A DNA stretch of 46,721 bases from Rhodocyclaceae bacterium (GTDB taxonomy: Bacteria; Pseudomonadota; Gammaproteobacteria; Burkholderiales; Rhodocyclaceae). Every line of letters starts with the position of its first letter. Within the stretch, counting starts at the first letter, position 1. Of this stretch, positions 13,662 through 22,823 are shown piece by piece. Below the pieces are notes generated by a model, which was not told the DNA's origin, made no database searches, and saw only the letters and a program-made list of their open reading frames with translations. The translations under genes were made by a program, and so were the position numbers. Where the stretch lies: contig JAGRGD010000289.1 in NCBI GenBank assembly GCA_020445665.1, forward strand, positions 1 to 46,721, written 5' to 3'.

Positions 13662-13695
13662 AAAAACGGCGCGGCCGGCCTTCGCCGGTCGCGCC
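13662..13695 (-). terminator. Rho-independent terminator after the chemoreceptor gene
   Basis: Positions 13668-13679 and 13684-13695 pair as a 12-bp GC-rich stem with one G-U pair around a four-base loop. On the minus strand the stem is followed by five T residues (the complement of 13662-13666). It lies about 30 bp after the chemoreceptor stop and marks the end of the minus-strand run that includes the FIST and sheath-like genes. Confidence 0.88.
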
Positions 13696-13723: not shown

Positions 13724-15157
13724 CTACATACCCGCCGCCATGCGCATCGGCCGTCGCGTCCGCTTGCGTTCGAGGCGGAAGCGCTGGGTCGTCTGGTCCA
13801 GACCGTCCACCTGCTCACGCAGGCTGTCCGCGGCAGCGGCCGCCTCTTCGACCAGGGCCGCATTCTGCTGCGTCACCTCTTCCATCCTCGAGACCGCCGT
13901 CGTCACCTGGTCGATGCCCAGCGACTGCTCCCTGCTCGCCTCTGCGATCTCGGCGACCACCCCATTGAGCTTCTCGAAGGCCGACAGCGCATCCTTGACG
14001 ACCGTCTCCATGCGGCCCACTTCGCGAGCGCCGGTGGCGACGCTCTCCTTGGACCTCTCGATCAGCGTCTTGATCTCCTTGGCCGCGTCCGAAGACTTCT
14101 GGGCGAGGTTGCGCACCTCGCTCGCCACGACCGCGAATCCGCGTCCCTGCTCGCCGGCGCGGGCCGCCTCGACGGCCGCATTGAGCGCCAGGATATTGGT
14201 CTGGAAGGCAATGGACTCGATCAGGCTGACAATGCTCGCAATCTGCTGCGAGGAGCCCTCGATCTCGCCCATGGTGCTGACCAGCCGCCCCATCGCCTCT
14301 CCGCTGCGGGCCATGCTCTGGTGCGAGTCGTCGGCCATCTTGCGTGCGGCGACCGCATTCTCCGCGTTCGCGGCGACGGTCGAGTTGAGTTCGGCCATCG
14401 AGGACGAGGTCTCCTCGAGGCTCGCCGCCTGGGACTCCGTGCGGCGCGACAGATCCTGATTGCCGTCGGCGATCTCGCTGGCCGCGATGTTGATCGAGCT
14501 GGCTGCCGACTGGATCTCCTTGATCATCTCGTGCAGCGTCTGCATCGTCTGGTTGGTGTCTTCCTTCAGTTGCCCGAAGACCCCTTCGTATTCGGCCTCG
14601 ATGCGCTCGGTCAGGTCGCCCTCGGCGATCGCCCGCAAGACCTTGGCCACGTCGGACAGGCCCTGCTCGGTCGTCTCGAACAAGGTGTTCACGTCCTGGG
14701 CGAGGGTCAGGAAGAAGCCCTGCTTGCCGCCGATGTCGATCCGCTGCGAGAAATCGCCGCGGGCGGCAGCACCGATCAGCGCGGCGATCTCTTCCTGGGC
14801 GGCACGCTCGATCCGCTCCGCCTCCGCCTTGGCCCTGGCGTTCGCCGCCAGCATGTCGATCGACGCCTGGTTGCGCTCCAGCGCCTTGGCGAACTCGCCG
14901 TGCAAGCCTGCCGTCTGGACACGTCGGTCGTAGTGGCCGTCGCCAGCGTTCTTGAGCACGGTCTGCTGCTCGCGGAAGCAGCTTTCGAGCTGGTCGAGCA
15001 TGTTGTTCACGTACCAGCACAGCTCGCCGATCTCGTCCTTCTCTCCGATGTTGGTGATGCGGCTGGTCAACCGCCCTTCAGCCACTGCCCGGACAACGTC
15101 CTGCAGGCGCGAGATGCGGTCGTCGCCGCCCTCAGGCGGCGAGTACGAATTGCTCAT
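13724..15157 (-). CDS. Soluble methyl-accepting chemotaxis protein with HAMP-like repeats
   Basis: A 477-residue chemoreceptor with no transmembrane segment and no periplasmic domain. The first half shows repeated HAMP-like pieces: [39 protein letters not shown] and [14 protein letters not shown]. The signalling half carries the conserved hairpin tip region, [19 protein letters not shown] then [20 protein letters not shown], which binds CheA/CheW. There is no C-terminal NWETF-type pentapeptide. Its start (ATG 15157) lies 26 bp inside the end of the Aer-type PAS gene, so the two are translationally coupled and together resemble a split Aer/Aer2 receptor. No cheA, cheW or cheY lies in the window. 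Confidence 0.93.
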
Positions 15158-15650
15158 AGCTCACTCCCTTTTCTTTCAGCACGTTGTTCAGCAGTTCGAG
15201 AGACGCCTCACAGGCATCCCGCGCACCGGCGGCCTGCTCGGCCCGGAGCATCTCCCGGTACAGGTTCTCGACGACCGGAAGGGCGGCCCGGTTGGGCGCG
15301 CGACGGACCGACAGGTAGCCACAGATGTTGCCCGCCGCGTCGTAGTCCGGCGTCACGTTGGCAATGACCCAGTAGTAACTGCCATCTCTGGCCATGTTCT
15401 TGACGTAGGCAAAGATTTCCTCGCCCGAACCGACGCTGTCCCAGAGCAGGCGGAAGACTCCCCGCGGCATGTCCGGGTGGCGGATGATGTTGTGCTGGGA
15501 GCCGAGCAGTTCCGACTCCTCGTAGCCCGAGAACTCGATGAAAATCTCGTTTCCGTAGACAATCCGACCCTTGAGGTCGGTCTTCGAGACGATGAAATCA
15601 TGCTCGCGCATGACCCGCTCGACACTGGTCGGCTGAATCTTGTTCTTCAT
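15132..15650 (-). CDS. Stand-alone Aer-type PAS sensor protein
   Basis: A 172-residue single PAS protein closely resembling the N-terminal FAD-binding PAS of the energy-taxis receptor Aer. Residues that I recall as important in Aer fall at the same numbers here: Asn34, Arg57-His58-Pro59-Asp60, Trp70 and Asn85. This suggests FAD binding, though heme or an empty pocket cannot be excluded. The Aer membrane anchor and HAMP domain are missing. Instead the protein ends in a short helical tail (about 127-172) and the chemoreceptor gene begins 26 bp before its stop. Start at ATG 15650, preceded by GGAGGG. The 143-bp gap upstream holds an imperfect hairpin but no T-run. Confidence 0.88.
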
Positions 15651-15793
15651 GCCCCCTCCGGCAGATCCGCGCCCGTCCGACAAAGACAGGCTCACCGGGC
15701 CACGGCAGGCCCTGATGCTGGTATCGGAGGCAATCGGGGGAACTTGAGGCGGCAGCCCGGCCTTGCCGGTCGGGCCATTCGCCGATGCGAGGC

Positions 15794-17275
15794 TCAGCCG
15801 GACTGCCAGGGCCCCGCGATCGGCACGCCGCCGATGCCGATGGACTGCCAGCGCATCAAGCGCGCGGCATTGCGGTTGCGGTAACTGAGCAGGGGCATCA
15901 CGCCCCGTGCAAGGGCCGCATTGCCGGCCGGTTCGCTCATCAGGATCTCGGCACAGGGCTGCTGGCCCGCCTCGCCGTCCTCGCGATAGACGTGGCTCGG
16001 AAGGTCCTCCAGATCGAGCACGTCGTCCGGGTCCATGGCCCAGCCTTCCTGCTGGAAGGCCTGTCCGCAGAGGGTGGCGAGCGCGAGCGCTGGCGGGCCC
16101 CACAGGTAGCGCCCGTGGTCCCGTCCGGCCGCCATCTCCTCGAAGGCGAAGGCAGAAACCGGATCGGTCGCCTTGCCATAGGGCAGGCGCACCAGCACAC
16201 CCGGCAGGGCCAGGCCGACCGAGGCCGCGACGCCACTGGCGCGCAGCGCGTTCCAGGCCGAGAAGGCAGCCTCGTCGGCAGCCGGCCACTCGGCCGCGCT
16301 GGCCAGCGCCTGCACCGAGTCGCAGCCCAGCAGTGCCGGCCGTGCGCCCGCCAGCAGGGCGGAGCCCGACTTGGCGGCCATGGCCGACAGCAGGGTCAGC
16401 AGCGCCATCTCGGCAGCATCCGGCCCGAAGGCCTGGTCGAGCGCGACCACCGACCAGCGACGGCCCTCGGCGCCGGCACCCTCGCGCCCGCACAGCAGCC
16501 GCTGGATCGTCGACGCGGCCATGTTGTCGGCGTGGGCAGAGACGTCCGCCAGCAGGTCCTGCCGGGAATAATCCATCAGGTACAGCTCGAGGGTCTCGCC
16601 GCAGTCGAGCTCGCGCACCATCCGCTCCACGCTTCGCCACAGGGCCTCGAGGGCCTGGAACTCGGGGTGATGGAGAACACGGCGCATGTGGTCGGCGATC
16701 GCATCGTCGGCGGCCGCCATGACCTGCTGCTGTTGCGGGTTGTCATGCACCACATGGGGGGCGACGACGTTGCGGATCAGCGCGTCGATGCCCTGGGCCG
16801 CGGCCTCCTGATGGCCAGCGGGCATCGCCGGTCCACTCGGCTTGCGACCCAGCAGGCGCTCGATGTCGCCACCGGTCTCGTCCGCCGCCGCATCGCCATC
16901 GACCGCTCCGGTGCCCGTCGGCGCGGCACCGAGGGCCGCGGCCGCCCGCGCGAACAGGGCCGGATCGCGTAGTTCCTGGCGCAGGCCCCGCAGCCCGGCG
17001 AAGAGGTCCACGCGCTCGTAGATCGCGTCCGGATGAAAATCTTCGATCTCCGAGAATGCCAGCGCGACCGTGGCGTCGCCCAGGTCGAGGGCGAGGCGCG
17101 GCGCGAATCGGGCCAGCACCTGGTCGATCGAATCGATGTCCACCGCGACCGGCACCCGCTGCGCCAGCGGCAGCCCGCCGTGACCGCTGAAGTTGCCGAG
17201 CACCAGCAGCCGGAACGGCGCCTCGTCACGGGGCTCGCCGCCCGACGGCCGGCCGAAGGAAAAATCGAAGTCCAT
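15794..17275 (-). CDS. TssB-TssC-like contractile sheath fusion protein (orphan)
   Basis: A 493-residue protein that looks like a shortened fusion of the two type VI secretion sheath subunits. The first ~110 residues resemble TssB/ImpB (FRLLVLGNFSG near 21-31, AFSEIEDFHPDAIYERVDLF near 73-92). A variable linker (about 112-150) leads to a TssC/ImpC-like part with LHHPEFQALEALWRSVERMV (201-220), VGLALPGVLVRLPYG (353-367) and a C-terminal MPLLSYRNRNAARLMRWQS. Start ATG 17275 has GGGAGG four bases upstream. No other type VI component (TssA, E-M, ClpV, Hcp, VgrG) is in the window. It lies between a FIST gene (52 bp upstream) and the PAS/chemoreceptor pair (143 bp downstream), so a signalling or scaffold role is possible, by inference. 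Confidence 0.82.
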   Translation of the reverse strand: MDFDFSFGRPSGGEPRDEAPFRLLVLGNFSGHGGLPLAQRVPVAVDIDSIDQVLARFAPRLALDLGDATVALAFSEIEDFHPDAIYERVDLFAGLRGLRQELRDPALFARAAAALGAAPTGTGAVDGDAAADETGGDIERLLGRKPSGPAMPAGHQEAAAQGIDALIRNVVAPHVVHDNPQQQQVMAAADDAIADHMRRVLHHPEFQALEALWRSVERMVRELDCGETLELYLMDYSRQDLLADVSAHADNMAASTIQRLLCGREGAGAEGRRWSVVALDQAFGPDAAEMALLTLLSAMAAKSGSALLAGARPALLGCDSVQALASAAEWPAADEAAFSAWNALRASGVAASVGLALPGVLVRLPYGKATDPVSAFAFEEMAAGRDHGRYLWGPPALALATLCGQAFQQEGWAMDPDDVLDLEDLPSHVYREDGEAGQQPCAEILMSEPAGNAALARGVMPLLSYRNRNAARLMRWQSIGIGGVPIAGPWQSG

Positions 17276-17327
17276 GTCGCCTCCCGAGTTCGGATCGACG
17301 CCAGTGTCACGGCCCGCCGGCCGACGG

Positions 17328-18500
17328 TCAAGGCGAGGCCGGCGCCGGCGCGAGAAACAGGGTCAGGACACCGGTGTATCCATAGAGCCGGTCACGGGCA
17401 ATCTCCCCGCCGGCGAAGAAGCCGGTCAATGGAACGTCGCCAAGGGCATCGCGGATCGTCTCCAGCTCGGCGTTGGGTCGGCCAAAATGCGCGCCGCCCC
17501 GCCCCGAGCAACTGACGTAGAGCGCGCCGGCGATCTGCCGCCCCGCCGCCGCGGCATGAAGTTCGCGCGCGATCCGGGCCAGATCCGCCAGCGCCGCGTC
17601 CGGGTTGCGGGCACAGAAACTCAGTTCCATGCCCTGCTCGAGCGTTTCGGCCACGGCCAGCACCTCTGCCTCGGGATCGACACCCAGGATGTGCCGGACC
17701 AGCGTCTCGCTGCCGAAGCGACCCGGCGCGTGGGCGGTGTCGTCGTGCCCCCGCGATATGCCGACCAGGGTCGCCGCCAGCATGCGGGCCAGCTCGTCGT
17801 GGTCCACCTCCTCGGGCAGCCCCAGGTCGTCGAGGGCACAGCCGAGCGCCGTACCGCCATCGAGGGCGATCAGGTAGTTGCCCTGGCACTCCACGACGCG
17901 CCGCGCCGGGCCCACGGGCTGGCAGCCCTGGGTCACCCGGGAGATCACCTCGACCCGGGGCGAAAAGGCGACCCCGCACAAGCCGCCGGAGAGCACCTCG
18001 TCGGCGATGGCCAGGTTGCGCTCGCGCGAGGCGGAGAGGCCGCCGAAGAGATAACCGGTGGCGGTCCGGTCGGCCTGCTCGACGAGGAGTTCCTGCAGAT
18101 CCGGCGTGCTGCCCTCGGCGTGCACCAGCGCGGTGTGGGCTTCGAAGACATCCCCCCGCCCCAGGGGGCGGCGGCCCGAAAAGACGCGAAAGTCCGCCGC
18201 CGGCAGCGGGGCGAGCAGCAGGGACAGGGCCGGCTGGTCGAAATATTCGACGCCGCTGGCACAGACGCCGACGCCAACCGCCCCGACCCACTCGGTGCCC
18301 GGCAACTGGGCCTTCAGGGTTGCCAGAATCGCCTCGGCGTCGGCCGCGTAGTAGTCGGTGAGGTAGCACAGGCCCAGCGGGTAGGCCATCGGCACGTCAC
18401 GGGACACGATCTGGGCCTGGAGCTGCGCAATGCACAGGTCGACCACGACCTGCCGGCTGGGGTGCGTGGCGTGGGCGGAGAGAAAGGCATGGGCGGGCAT
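17328..18500 (-). CDS. FIST N/C domain signalling protein
   Basis: A 390-residue protein with FIST_N (about 20-215) and FIST_C (about 225-380) domains. The second ends in the characteristic LTGFFAGGEIARDRLYGYTG motif. FIST domains are predicted small-ligand sensors found with chemoreceptors, cyclases and kinases; a role in binding amino-acid-like ligands has been suggested for the family. No output domain is fused here, so it probably acts through partners. It leads a run with the sheath-like protein, the PAS protein and the soluble chemoreceptor. It starts 54 bp after the mocA stop on the same strand, so read-through from the molybdo-enzyme genes is possible. Confidence 0.88.
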   Translation of the reverse strand: MPAHAFLSAHATHPSRQVVVDLCIAQLQAQIVSRDVPMAYPLGLCYLTDYYAADAEAILATLKAQLPGTEWVGAVGVGVCASGVEYFDQPALSLLLAPLPAADFRVFSGRRPLGRGDVFEAHTALVHAEGSTPDLQELLVEQADRTATGYLFGGLSASRERNLAIADEVLSGGLCGVAFSPRVEVISRVTQGCQPVGPARRVVECQGNYLIALDGGTALGCALDDLGLPEEVDHDELARMLAATLVGISRGHDDTAHAPGRFGSETLVRHILGVDPEAEVLAVAETLEQGMELSFCARNPDAALADLARIARELHAAAAGRQIAGALYVSCSGRGGAHFGRPNAELETIRDALGDVPLTGFFAGGEIARDRLYGYTGVLTLFLAPAPASP

Positions 18501-18554: not shown

Positions 18555-19145
18555 TTAGGGCCTGATGTGCGCCACGTCGCCCACCGGCAGATCGGCCGGA
18601 CGGTCCACGTCGCGCAGGCAGCCCGGGTCGGGCACCTCGCAATCCACCCGCGCCGCGCCTGCCCGGCGGACCAGCTCGCGGGCCCCGACGTCTCCCGTCA
18701 GCGCGGCCAGCGAGTCGCCCCAGCGCGCATCGAATCCGACCGGATGACCAGGCCGGCCACCGTGGCAGGCGCGCGCCACCGAGGCACCGGCGAGCAGAGC
18801 GTCGCGCACGACACGATGCGTTTCGGGCCGCACGAAGGGCATGTCGGCTAGCGCCACGAGCCAGCCCGCCGCATCGCGTCTGGCCCGCACGCCCGCGGCG
18901 AGGCTGTGGCCCATGCCTTGCGCCGCGTCGACACAGACGATGGCACGGCAGCCGGCTGCAACGACGGCCTCGGACAGCGCTTCGTCACCCTCGCCCACGA
19001 CGACGATCACCTCGCGACAGGCCGCCACGAGTTGTCGCGCCGCGACCAGCGCCATCGGCCCCTCGTGCAGTGTTGCCCAGCGCTTGTCGCGACCGAAGCG
19101 CCGACCCTGGCCGGCCGCGAGCAGCAGGCCGACGACCTCAGCCAA
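18555..19145 (-). CDS. mocA: MocA-like molybdenum cofactor cytidylyltransferase
   Basis: A 196-residue nucleotidyltransferase of the MobA/MocA group. The N-terminal VGLLLAAGQGRRFGRDK motif binds CTP or GTP; DMPFVRP and HPVGFDARW-type motifs follow. With XdhC beside it, the likely reaction is conversion of molybdopterin to the cytosine dinucleotide form used by molybdo-hydroxylases. The start is uncertain: TTG at 19145 gives the family N-terminus (MAEVVGLLLAAG) and overlaps the xdhC stop by eight bases, while an ATG at 19196 would add 17 residues and overlap xdhC further. Last gene of the iorA-iorB-xdhC-mocA set. Confidence 0.85.
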   Translation of the reverse strand: MAEVVGLLLAAGQGRRFGRDKRWATLHEGPMALVAARQLVAACREVIVVVGEGDEALSEAVVAAGCRAIVCVDAAQGMGHSLAAGVRARRDAAGWLVALADMPFVRPETHRVVRDALLAGASVARACHGGRPGHPVGFDARWGDSLAALTGDVGARELVRRAGAARVDCEVPDPGCLRDVDRPADLPVGDVAHIRP

Positions 19146-20139
19146 GCCGGCAGGCCGCCTCGGGTTGCCCGGGCGCCGCCGCGAGCACGGCGCCATGAAG
19201 CGCGCTTCGCGCGGCCACCAGTTCGGCAGCCACCGCCACCGCGATCTCCGGCGGCGTGCGGCTGCCGATGGGCAGACCGACCGGTCCGCGCAGGCGACCG
19301 ACCTCTTCGGCCGAGAGGTCGAAATGCTCGAGCAGACGCTCCCGTCGCTTGCGGCTGTTGGCCTTCGAGCCGAGGGCGCCGACGTAGAAAGCTGCCGACT
19401 TGAGGGCCTCGAGCAGGGCCATGTCGTCGAGCTTCGGGTCGTGGGTCAGGGCGACGATCGCGGTGTGGGGGTCGGCCCCCATCGCCAGCACGACGTCGTC
19501 CGGCATGCCGGGCACCAGCGGCGCGCCGGCCACGTCCCACTCGTCGCCGTACTCCACGCGCGGATCGCAGACTTCGACCGAGAAACCGAGGGACTGGGCG
19601 ATGGGCGTCAGATAGCGGGAGATCTGGCCGGCGCCGATCAGCAGCAGGCGCCAGGCCGGCCCATGCTGGGTGACGAGGCGGGCGCCATCCCAGTGCAGCG
19701 GCAAACCGGCCCGCCCGCCGGCCAGCGACACCCCACCGGTCGCGACATCCACAGTTCGCGCCACGAGCTCGCCGGCGGCGATGCGCTGGGCCATCGCGTC
19801 GAGTGCCGCCAGCGCCGGCGCCGGCTCGAGGAGCAGCTCGAGGGTGCCGCCGCAGGGCAGGCCGAAGCGGAAGGCCTCGTCACGGGTCACCCCGTAGCGC
19901 AGCACCCGGGGCGTCTCGCCGTCGAACTCGCCGGCCGCCATGCGCGCGATCAGGTCGTCCTCGATGCAGCCGCCGGACACCGAGCCCTGCACGTGGCCGT
20001 CGGCCCGCAGCAGCATCCAGGCCCCCGGCGGGCGGGGCGCCGAGCCCCAGGTCCGCACCACCGTGACCAGCGCGAAGCGGTACCCCTCGGCCGCCCAGCG
20101 GCGGGCGGCCTCGAGGACCTGCAGATCCATGCTGTCCAT
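19138..20139 (-). CDS. xdhC: XdhC/CoxI family molybdenum cofactor insertion factor
   Basis: A 333-residue maturation protein. The XdhC/CoxI N-terminal domain carries WGSAPRPPGAWMLLRADG and GSVSGGCIEDDL, with a Cys in FGLPCGGTLELLLEP. The C-terminal Rossmann domain shows LLLIGAGQISRYL, LTHDPKLDDMALLEAL and YVGALGSKANSRKRRERL. Family members protect and sulfurate the molybdenum cofactor before insertion into xanthine-oxidase-type enzymes. It lies ten bases after iorB and overlaps mocA, consistent with dedicated service to the IorAB enzyme. Confidence 0.92.
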   Translation of the reverse strand: MDSMDLQVLEAARRWAAEGYRFALVTVVRTWGSAPRPPGAWMLLRADGHVQGSVSGGCIEDDLIARMAAGEFDGETPRVLRYGVTRDEAFRFGLPCGGTLELLLEPAPALAALDAMAQRIAAGELVARTVDVATGGVSLAGGRAGLPLHWDGARLVTQHGPAWRLLLIGAGQISRYLTPIAQSLGFSVEVCDPRVEYGDEWDVAGAPLVPGMPDDVVLAMGADPHTAIVALTHDPKLDDMALLEALKSAAFYVGALGSKANSRKRRERLLEHFDLSAEEVGRLRGPVGLPIGSRTPPEIAVAVAAELVAARSALHGAVLAAAPGQPEAACRLG

Positions 20140-20149
20140 CGCGGCGCCC

Positions 20150-22354
20150 TCAGACCGCCAGCGCCGAGGTGTCGAGGGGCAGGCGGTAGAGGCGCTTGCC
20201 CGTCGCCGCGGCGATGGCGTTGATGACGGCCGGCGCGACCGGCGGCACGCCGGGTTCGCCGATCCCGGTCGGGGGCGCCGACGAGGGCACGATGTGCACC
20301 TCGATCACCGGCATCTCGTGGATGCGCAGCACCGGGTAGCCGTCGAAGTTGCCCTGCTGCACGACCCCGTCCTCGAGGGTGATCTCGCCGTGGAGCAACG
20401 CCGCCAGCGCGAAGCCGACGCCGCCCTCGACCTGGGCGCGGACGTTGTCCGGGTTGATCGCGATGCCGCAATCCACCGCACAGACGATGCGGTCGATGGT
20501 CAACGCCCCGTCCTTCGCCACGCTGACCTCGGCCAGTTGCGCCACGTAGCTGTTGAAGGACTCGTGCACCGCGATGCCTCGGCCGCGGCGGACACCGTCG
20601 GCCCCTGCCGCGAGCGGCGTGCCCCAGCCGCCCTTGTCGGCCGCCAGGCGCAGCACGCCGGCGTGGCGCGGGTGCTTGTCGAGCAGCGACAGGCGCAGCG
20701 CGACCGGGTCCCGCCCGGCGGCGGTGGCCAGCTCGTCGAGGAAGGTCTCGGTGGACACCGCGGTGTGGGTCGAGCCCACCGAGCGCCACCACAGCACCGG
20801 CACCGGCACATCGGTGGGGGTGTGCAGCTCGACCTGCAGGTTCGGGATCGCGTAGGGCAGGTTGGCGGCGCCCTCGACCGACACCTGGTCGATGCCGTCC
20901 TTGACCAGCATCTTCTCGAAGGGCGAGCCCGTCACGATCGACTGGCCCACCAGCCGGTGCTGCCAGCCGACCACGTTGCCGTCCGCATCGAGGCCGGCCC
21001 GCAGCGCGTGGTGGAACATCGGCCGGTAGTAGCCGGCGCGCATGTCGTCCTCCCGCAGCCAGACCAGCTTGACCGGCGCCCGCCCGCCGATCGCCTTGAC
21101 GATCTGCGCGCACTCGAGGACGTAGTCGGAGTCCTTGCAGGCGCGACGGCCGAAGCTGCCGCCGGCATACAGCATGTGGATGTTCACCTGCTCGGGCTTG
21201 AGGCCCAGCAGGCCGGCCAGGGCGTACTGGTCGCCGGTGTGGAGTTGCTCGCCGTTCCACACCTCGCAGCCCTCGGCGCCGAGGCGCATGACGCAGTTCA
21301 TCGGCTCCATCGCGGCGTGGGCGAGGTAGGGAAAGTCGTAGCTGGCCTCCAGGACCCGCGCGGCGCCGGCGAGGGCCGCCGCGTTGTCGCCTTCGGCGCG
21401 GGCGACCAGTCCCGGCCGCTTAGCCATCTCCCGGTAGCCGGCGAGGATCTCGTCCGAGCCCTTGCGGAAGGCCTTCGACTCGTCCCATTCGACGGTGAGC
21501 GCGTCGCGGCCCTTCTTGGCCGACCAGGTGTCCCGCGCCAGCACCGCGACCCCCTGCGGGATCGCGACCACGTCCTCGACACCGCGCACGGCCTTCGCCG
21601 CGCTCGCATCGAAGGACTTCACGGTCGCGCCGAAGCGCGGCGGGTGGGCCACCACGGCCACCAGCATGCCGGGCAGCTGGACGTCCTGGGTGAACATCGC
21701 CCTGCCGGTGGACTTGGCCGCCACGTCCTTGCGGGGCACCCGCTTGCCGATCAGGCGGAAGTCGGCCGGATCCTTCAGCGTCACCTCGGCCGGGGCCGGC
21801 AGCGCGGCGGCGGCCTCGGCCAGTTCACCGAAGGTGGCCGAGCGGCCCGATGCGCCATGGCGCACCACGCCGCCCTCGACGGCCAGCTCTCCGGCCGGCA
21901 CCTGCCAGCGGTCCGCGGCGGCCGACACCAGCATCGCCCGCCCGGCCGCCCCCGCCTTGCGCATCTGCTCCCACGAGTTGGCCATCGCGGTGCTGCCGCC
22001 GGTGCCCTGCGCCGGGCCCCAGAAGAGGTTGTTGTAGCGCTTGGCGTCGGCGGGTGCGCCCTCGACGCGGACCTGTTCCCAGTCGGCATCCAGTTCCTCG
22101 GCCACCAGGGTGGCGAGGCCGGTGTAGGTGCCCTGCCCCATCTCCAGGTGCTTGGAGATCACCGTCACGGTGTTGTCGGCGCCGATGCGCAGGAAGGCGT
22201 TCGGCTCGAAGGTGACCGGCGCCACCGGCCCGCTGCCGGCCTGGCCGGGGCCCGCGCCGGCCATCACGGTGGCCGGCATCATCACGCCCAGGGTCAGCCC
22301 GCCACCCGCCTGCAGGAAGCGGCGACGGCTCAGGTTCTCGATTGCTTGGCTCAT
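20150..22354 (-). CDS. iorB: IorB-like molybdo-hydroxylase large subunit, Tat-exported
   Basis: A 734-residue molybdopterin-binding subunit of the xanthine dehydrogenase superfamily, of the isoquinoline 1-oxidoreductase/aldehyde dehydrogenase type. It begins with a twin-arginine signal ([11 protein letters not shown] near 9-19), so the enzyme should be folded with cofactor in the cytoplasm and exported. Motifs along the chain include [20 protein letters not shown], the SFGRR region near 400 and, close to the C-terminus, [14 protein letters not shown]. That last motif carries the Glu expected to be the catalytic base. The substrate (N-heterocycle or aldehyde) cannot be predicted. It starts one base after the iorA stop. 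No cytochrome c subunit is encoded alongside. Confidence 0.88.
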
Positions 22355-22355
22355 G

Positions 22356-22823
22356 TCAGGCCTCCCCGCCGAGCGAGGCGGCCGCCTCGTGGATCGCCGC
22401 GCGGATGCGCACGTAGGTGGCGCAGCGGCAGATGTTGCCCGCCATCGCCGCGTCGATGTCGGCATCGCTCGGGGCACGGTTGTCGGCCAGCAGGGCCACC
22501 GCGCTCATGATCTGGCCGGACTGGCAGTAGCCGCACTGGGCCACGTCGAGCTTCTGCCAAGCGGCCTGCACAACCTGCCCGACCTTGCCCGAATCGATCG
22601 CCTCGATGGTCGTGACCCGCTTGCCCTCGGCGGCCGACACGGGCGTCGAGCACGAGCGCACCGGGGTGCCGTCCAGATGCACGGTACAGGCGCCGCACAG
22701 CGCCTTGCCACAGCCGAATTTGGTACCGGTCAGCTGCAGGGTGTCCCGCAGGGCCCACAGCAGCGGCGTGTCGGGCGCCACGTCGAGCTGGCGCGCCATG
22801 CCATTCACATTGAGTTCAATCAC
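22356..22823 (-). CDS. iorA: IorA-like [2Fe-2S] small subunit of molybdo-hydroxylase
   Basis: A 155-residue two-cluster iron-sulfur protein. The plant-type ferredoxin cluster uses Cys38, Cys43, Cys46 and Cys58; the second cluster uses Cys97, Cys100, Cys132 and Cys134. It passes electrons from the molybdenum site of IorB to an external acceptor. I chose the GTG at 22823, preceded by GGAGA six bases upstream, because an ATG at codon 9 would cut the first beta strand. It has no signal peptide of its own and would be exported with the Tat-tagged IorB. First gene of the iorA-iorB-xdhC-mocA operon, divergent from an AraC regulator. Confidence 0.92.

Follow-up and report, generated by a model that had tools for sequence, protein, structure and literature searches.

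The DNA analysed here, hereafter the window, is a contig of 46,721 nucleotides (JAGRGD010000289.1, contig C201 in our numbering) from the 4.8-Mb, 341-contig genome of a Rhodocyclaceae bacterium (GCA_020445665.1). Four genes on its reverse strand encode, in order of reading, a FIST-domain protein, a homologue of the type VI secretion sheath proteins TssB and TssC, a CetB/Aer-type PAS protein and a CetA-type chemoreceptor (MCP). The FIST gene (17328-18500; 390 residues) belongs to a free-standing sensor family and matches PF08495 (FIST N, 1.8e-26) and PF10442 (FIST_C, 5.3e-26); an NCBIfam scan returned no family for its product. After a gap of 52 bp follows the sheath homologue (15794-17275; 493 residues), in which T6SS_VipA (3.3e-13) and VipB (1.7e-50) are both matched over their curated cut-offs on a single chain. 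A gap of 143 bp (15651-15793) then leads to the PAS gene (15132-15650; 172 residues; PF08447, PAS_3, 1.5e-13), which overlaps by 26 bp the MCP gene (13724-15157; 477 residues; HAMP, HAMP_2 and MCPsignal, 5e-49). The open reading frames, their common strand, their Pfam domains and the two gaps agree with what a first-pass annotation of the locus had claimed. The CetBA pair and the FIST protein are ordinary; the sheath-like protein is the most interesting part of the locus.

The sheath homologue and its relatives

In the sheath homologue, a TssB core is joined to the N-terminal domain of TssC, and the C-terminal domain of TssC is absent. Its TssB (VipA)-like core (residues 14-104; 16964-17236, minus strand as throughout) covers PF05591 positions 21-122 of 155, and its TssC (VipB) N-terminal domain (residues 184-478; 15842-16726) covers PF05943 positions 2-299 of 301. 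PF18945, the TssC C-terminal domain, gave no match in the protein at E 0.001 and is present in the canonical TssC of the same genome, on contig C156. The predicted model aligns to TssC only as far as residue 400, and the C-terminal part of TssB is missing as well. Neither NCBIfam equivalog cut-off was reached (TIGR03355, 176.4 versus 271.5 bits; TIGR03358, 46.5 versus 97.25 bits). The earlier naming of the protein as a TssB-TssC fusion was thus right in placing both families in one chain, and it overlooked that the fusion is incomplete at its TssC end.

Relatives were found via two peptide patterns, which makes the spread given below a lower bound; 42 loci were reduced to 28 carrier loci by dropping 14 as canonical TssC (L069, L070, L072-L083). 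In all 24 relatives whose end can be read, the protein terminates no more than 20 residues from the same motif. An N-terminal strand pattern, which by eye resembles the TssB arm, was seen in 20 of 28 rows, several of the others falling short of the N-terminus; L048 and L053 were not counted, as they matched only because the aligned piece starts later. Excluded were L060 (internal stop), L061 (end fragment) and L064 from the sheath alignment, and L062 (masked bases), L033 and L034 from the fold alignment. The linker between the two domains (residues 105-183; 16727-16963) is partly of low confidence, with a predicted local distance difference test score (pLDDT) below 50 at residues 120-140 and 143-161, and holds a short conserved motif at residues 137-146, which by eye we take to stand at the place of the ClpV-type LL motif of the TssC N-terminus. 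The gene is under purifying selection: the ratio of nonsynonymous to synonymous substitution rates (dN/dS, NG86) was 0.18-0.27 in four pairs with dS of 0.6-0.9, values that rule out a decaying relic.

The truncated single-chain family follows type VI secretion. Canonical TssC, as judged by PF18945, was present in 22 of 28 carrier genomes compared with 51 of 274 genomes of a class sample, own genome included, that is unmatched to the carriers in taxonomy. The difference persisted when the four in-cluster carriers were removed (18/24 versus 50/273, Fisher p 2e-8) and when four same-genus genomes were removed as well (15/20 versus 50/273, Fisher p 2e-7). Moreover, a second, canonical-type TssC match was found in all seven carriers of the family sample, compared with 50 of the 192 other genomes. 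Seven of the 28 carrier loci have type VI genes in the examined flanks (L047, L052, L054, L058, L066, L068 and L071), and relatives lie inside type VI clusters on Rhodobacterales plasmids. The genome of the window itself has tssA, tssB, tssC, tagJ, tssE, tssF, tssG and the start of tssH on C156, and TssK on C285. Judged from locus titles, the family extends at least to Beta- and Gammaproteobacteria, Rhodospirillales, Rokuibacteriota, Acidobacteria-type lineages, Gemmatimonadota and Verrucomicrobiota. We recognised no description of such truncated single-chain TssB-TssC proteins in the literature listings searched, as far as their entries go; there, 'fused TssB' stands for TssB tagged with green fluorescent protein in the available text (PMC10781749, PMC5614524).

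Several relatives deserve mention in their own right. In the Rhodobacterales plasmid clusters, L033:14363-17773 and L034:14522-17713 encode truncated TssB-TssC proteins of 1063-1136 residues, extended at either end by long acidic stretches; they are encoded near vgrG and annotated merely as 'contractile sheath large subunit'. TPR-methyltransferase proteins are encoded near vgrG and a truncated sheath gene in a Gallionellaceae locus (L047:2247-3617) and a Rhodospirillales locus (L058:10321-11658), and this arrangement may represent a cassette that recurs with vgrG. Three conserved neighbours (clusters c18-c20) are common to two truncated sheath genes of acidobacteria (L053:10320-12969 and L059:5381-7238), by eye a small membrane protein with no Pfam match and a sigma/anti-sigma pair. 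In the Rhodocyclaceae locus L055:7501-8787, a SET-domain protein and a protein with a peptidoglycan-binding match below cut-off stand just upstream of the truncated sheath gene. The neighbours of orphan loci are mixed, and among 20 selected ones were transglutaminase-like, kinase-HDOD, SET, ankyrin and other proteins, several of them without a family.

The receptor pair, the FIST gene and the gene order

CetBA receptors were first described in Campylobacter, according to the accessible parts of the reports (PMC2628428, PMC3558505), and overlapping cetB and cetA genes are reported in the available text of PMC12442639, which also lists the residues of Magnetospirillum CetB2 that contact flavin adenine dinucleotide (FAD): His54, Asn55, Arg58, Phe67, Trp71, Asn86, Val100 and Arg117. 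All eight are found in the PAS protein of the window at matching spacing, and the protein probably binds FAD. A PAS match was present in 128 of 199 genomes of the window's family, own genome included, and the loci examined were the best 30 of a longer list, window included. Among these best 30, an MCP match adjoins the PAS gene in every case and a sheath gene in five; the other 25, outside the module of four genes, had no sheath match within 1.5 kb. In all ten relatives read, a start codon of the MCP frame precedes the end of the PAS gene. By its sequence, the pair reads as an ordinary CetBA-type energy-taxis receptor.

The MCP of the window has no membrane-like stretch, its top 19-residue hydropathy being 1.52, inside the signalling tip. 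A membrane anchor is likewise missing from the MCPs of L035 and of genomes G060 and G175, and a hydrophobic N-terminal stretch is present in those of L036-L038, G172 and G012. The MCP is therefore predicted to be membrane-anchored in three of the five module genomes (L036-L038), so that a cytoplasmic array, as proposed in the first-pass annotation, is not conserved. A tree of 20 PAS rows places the window together with G194, G060 and G175 at 98/98 support, and the sheath label has to change twice on it. G060 and G175 have a soluble CetBA pair with no sheath gene beside it, and their TssC matches are of canonical type with 27% identity only. Since the orthologues at L036-L038 are of membrane type and these soluble relatives have no sheath gene, a soluble receptor is ruled out as the reason for a scaffold, and the same two observations count against the proposed sheath-scaffolded cytoplasmic array. 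The genome has 26 MCP-domain matches, so that there is probably a normal array which the receptor can join. The soluble CetBA pairs of L116 and L119, in another genus of the family, adjoin no sheath gene and are some of the window pair's nearest relatives; their placement beside it in the PAS tree possibly reflects gene transfer or in-place replacement.

The FIST protein stands alone in its relatives. Homologues 54-63% identical occur in 17 loci outside the module (L089-L105); among 29 FIST loci besides that of the window, four adjoin a sheath gene, and no sheath or PAS match lies within 1.5 kb of the remaining 25, of which one (L111) has an MCP match. Among solved structures, a search by sequence gave only weak FBXO22 matches (E about 0.005). 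Free-standing FIST proteins include the haem-based nitric oxide sensor NosP, often encoded with a histidine kinase, according to the accessible part of PMC12570481.

Close relatives of the sheath homologue were found in seven of the 199 family genomes: its own, G194 (78% identical), G140 (71%), G104 (70%), G170 (68%), G028 (53%) and G050 (46%). The order FIST, sheath, PAS, MCP is present in five of six sampled genomes of one genus (own, G194, G140, G170 and G104), a recurrence that exceeds chance; in G028 and G050, the stretches read contain the sheath-like gene but no match to FIST, PAS or MCP. G140 retains the complete block, although xdhC and mocA are missing from that locus, and so do L036-L038, although their downstream genes differ from those of the window. 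The gap between the sheath and PAS genes is 138, 188, 192 and 190 bp in L035-L038. No sheath-like homologue was found in the sixth genome of the genus, G049. Its presumed equivalent locus has a FIST gene (60% identical) but none of sheath, PAS and MCP; the response regulator (75%), mscL and other genes that surround the block in the window lie downstream, and the locus also has a folE-like gene, an aminotransferase-like gene and then a hydrolase (names judged from translations). Upstream of FIST, G049 has other genes, and the correspondence of the loci is drawn from the downstream side only. Its FIST protein is no nearer to that of the window than those of other genera are. The 24 carrier loci outside the genus had no FIST, PAS or MCP matches in the flanks examined, called open reading frames having been rechecked, which rules out the four-gene set as a general module. 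The four-gene arrangement described earlier thus recurs inside one genus and in none of the loci examined outside it.

As to the borders of the locus, mocA (18555-19196) lies on the same strand 54 bp upstream of FIST and overlaps xdhC, and with these genes directly upstream the four-gene unit has no visible 5' boundary. They form part of a molybdenum-hydroxylase-type set on the same strand (18555-22477: xdhC, mocA-like gene and, judged from its translation, a large oxidoreductase subunit), which is kept across the genus, except that xdhC and mocA are missing from the G140 locus. Downstream of the MCP gene, where a clear terminator had been claimed, a stem followed by five T can be read directly (13662-13695, minus strand); it has one mismatch, is unlisted in a consensus terminator scan that is uninformative in GC-rich sequence, and folds no better than shuffles (z -0.66; 49 of 200 shuffles equally good), so that 'terminator-like' describes it better. 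In the gap before the PAS gene, the scan, uninformative there for the same reason, listed no terminator- or sigma70-like site. The genes of the locus may be co-transcribed.

Weighing the explanations

The explanation we favour, to which we give about an even chance, is that the sheath homologue serves the cell's own type VI system as an accessory relative of its sheath, perhaps capping the end, and that the redox receptor next to it is an ordinary one. The locus would then join three normally separate things, a CetBA-type bipartite energy-taxis receptor, a free-standing FIST sensor and a truncated single-chain sheath relative. The PAS protein would hold FAD, read the redox state and dock on the MCP, which would signal to the cell's chemotaxis kinase. 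Sheath subunits are linked to each other by strand exchange. The sheath homologue is predicted to fold like one such subunit and would retain the TssB-like N-terminal strand, without the C-terminal part by which one subunit links to the next. A protein that fits the sheath lattice but lacks this linkage should cap, seed or tune a sheath, not form a filament; it would dock on the canonical sheath or on assembly partners and stop, cap or tune polymerisation. With the predicted fold, the missing domain, the conservation, the purifying selection and the type VI co-occurrence established by computation, we suggest that capping or assembly control may be the role of this protein.

Several points weigh against this explanation. 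The case for capping builds on one predicted model and the domain that it lacks. No type VI gene was found in the window near the sheath homologue, and 21 of the 28 carrier loci had none in the examined flanks, many of which are cut by contig ends; one of these 21, L062, has a PAAR-like protein cluster in common with L066. Six of the 28 carrier genomes gave no PF18945 match, among them G201, apparently the same assembly as G140, which has a canonical-type TssC match. The carriers that were compared with the taxonomically unmatched class sample include several close relatives. Finally, synteny in the genus exceeds the four genes and takes in a molybdenum-hydroxylase-type subunit, xdhC and mscL, so that part of the conserved order is plain relatedness and the order alone is weaker evidence.

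The last point leads to one alternative, somewhat doubtful in our view, in which the chemotaxis pair, the FIST gene and a type VI accessory gene share the stretch by descent in one genus and work separately. Each part is found alone elsewhere, the additional syntenic genes are unrelated to the four, all five genomes have a gap of 138-192 bp before PAS, and the two sheath-label changes required by the PAS tree point the same way. Mere neighbourhood fits less well with blockwise presence and absence among changing flanks, and with a single strand throughout and gaps of at most 192 bp.

Coupling of CetBA, FIST and the sheath homologue is a hypothesis with modest support, and a link from the sensors to type VI secretion is possible. 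In its full form, the output of CetBA and the FIST sensor would set the truncated sheath protein and hence the type VI machine, giving redox- or ligand-gated control, which we think unlikely. It would account for the joint presence of sheath, PAS and MCP in five genomes and their joint absence at the G049 locus despite the FIST gene there, for a block that stays intact as the upstream flank (G140 without xdhC-mocA) and the downstream flank differ, and for the canonical-type TssC in every family-sample carrier. This pattern comes down to one gain or loss event, however, and the G049 FIST, at just 60%, is no closer than those of other genera; the 25 best PAS loci without a nearby sheath match and the 24 carrier loci without FIST, PAS or MCP speak against it too. 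The specific form in which redox state, through CetBA, and a small ligand, through FIST, set whether a trimmed sheath-like brake or cap sits on the growing sheath we likewise hold to be improbable.

The idea of the first-pass annotation, in which a cytoplasmic chemosensory array, fed by FIST and PAS, is built on the sheath homologue as its scaffold or filament, is disfavoured and in our judgement very improbable: the conserved order in the genus and the soluble MCPs of the window and L035 are in its favour, but the subunit-linkage domain (the TssC C-terminal domain) is missing, the family goes along with type VI secretion, a membrane anchor is predicted for the MCP in most module genomes, and the soluble CetBA pairs of G060 and G175 do without a sheath gene.

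A natural subunit without the linking domain is a direct tool for testing how the type VI sheath begins and ends its growth, and the chemoreceptor next door offers a possible tie to redox sensing that can be tested. The sensor-controlled cap, held above to be improbable, would, if true, join energy taxis to contact-dependent killing, and in its wider form would make truncated TssB-TssC proteins of the single-chain type an as yet unrecognised kind of type VI assembly factor found in several phyla.

Comparison with known systems

CetBA receptors (Campylobacter CetA/CetB, Magnetospirillum CetBA2) likewise have a separate PAS gene before, and overlapping, a HAMP-MCP gene, and the window PAS shares the complete set of CetB2 FAD residues. 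CetA2 is drawn with a membrane anchor, whereas the MCPs of the window and L035 have none and those of L036-L038 have a hydrophobic stretch; the window pair also differs in its position after a sheath homologue. With FIST-domain proteins, NosP included, the window protein shares FIST N and FIST C, and no other domain was found in it; the NosP operon, in the accessible part of PMC12570481, has a histidine kinase gene, whereas the window FIST has no adjoining one on the same strand.

The type VI sheath is built of TssB (PF05591) and TssC, and the window protein likewise has the TssB and the TssC N-terminal (PF05943) domains. The canonical sheath uses two chains, whereas the window protein is one chain without PF18945 and without the TssB C-terminal part, and it adjoins no type VI gene found in the window. 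Sheaths of phages, R-pyocins and extracellular injection systems are also single-chain; the window protein is instead TssB/TssC by sequence, and it has no C-terminal linking part.

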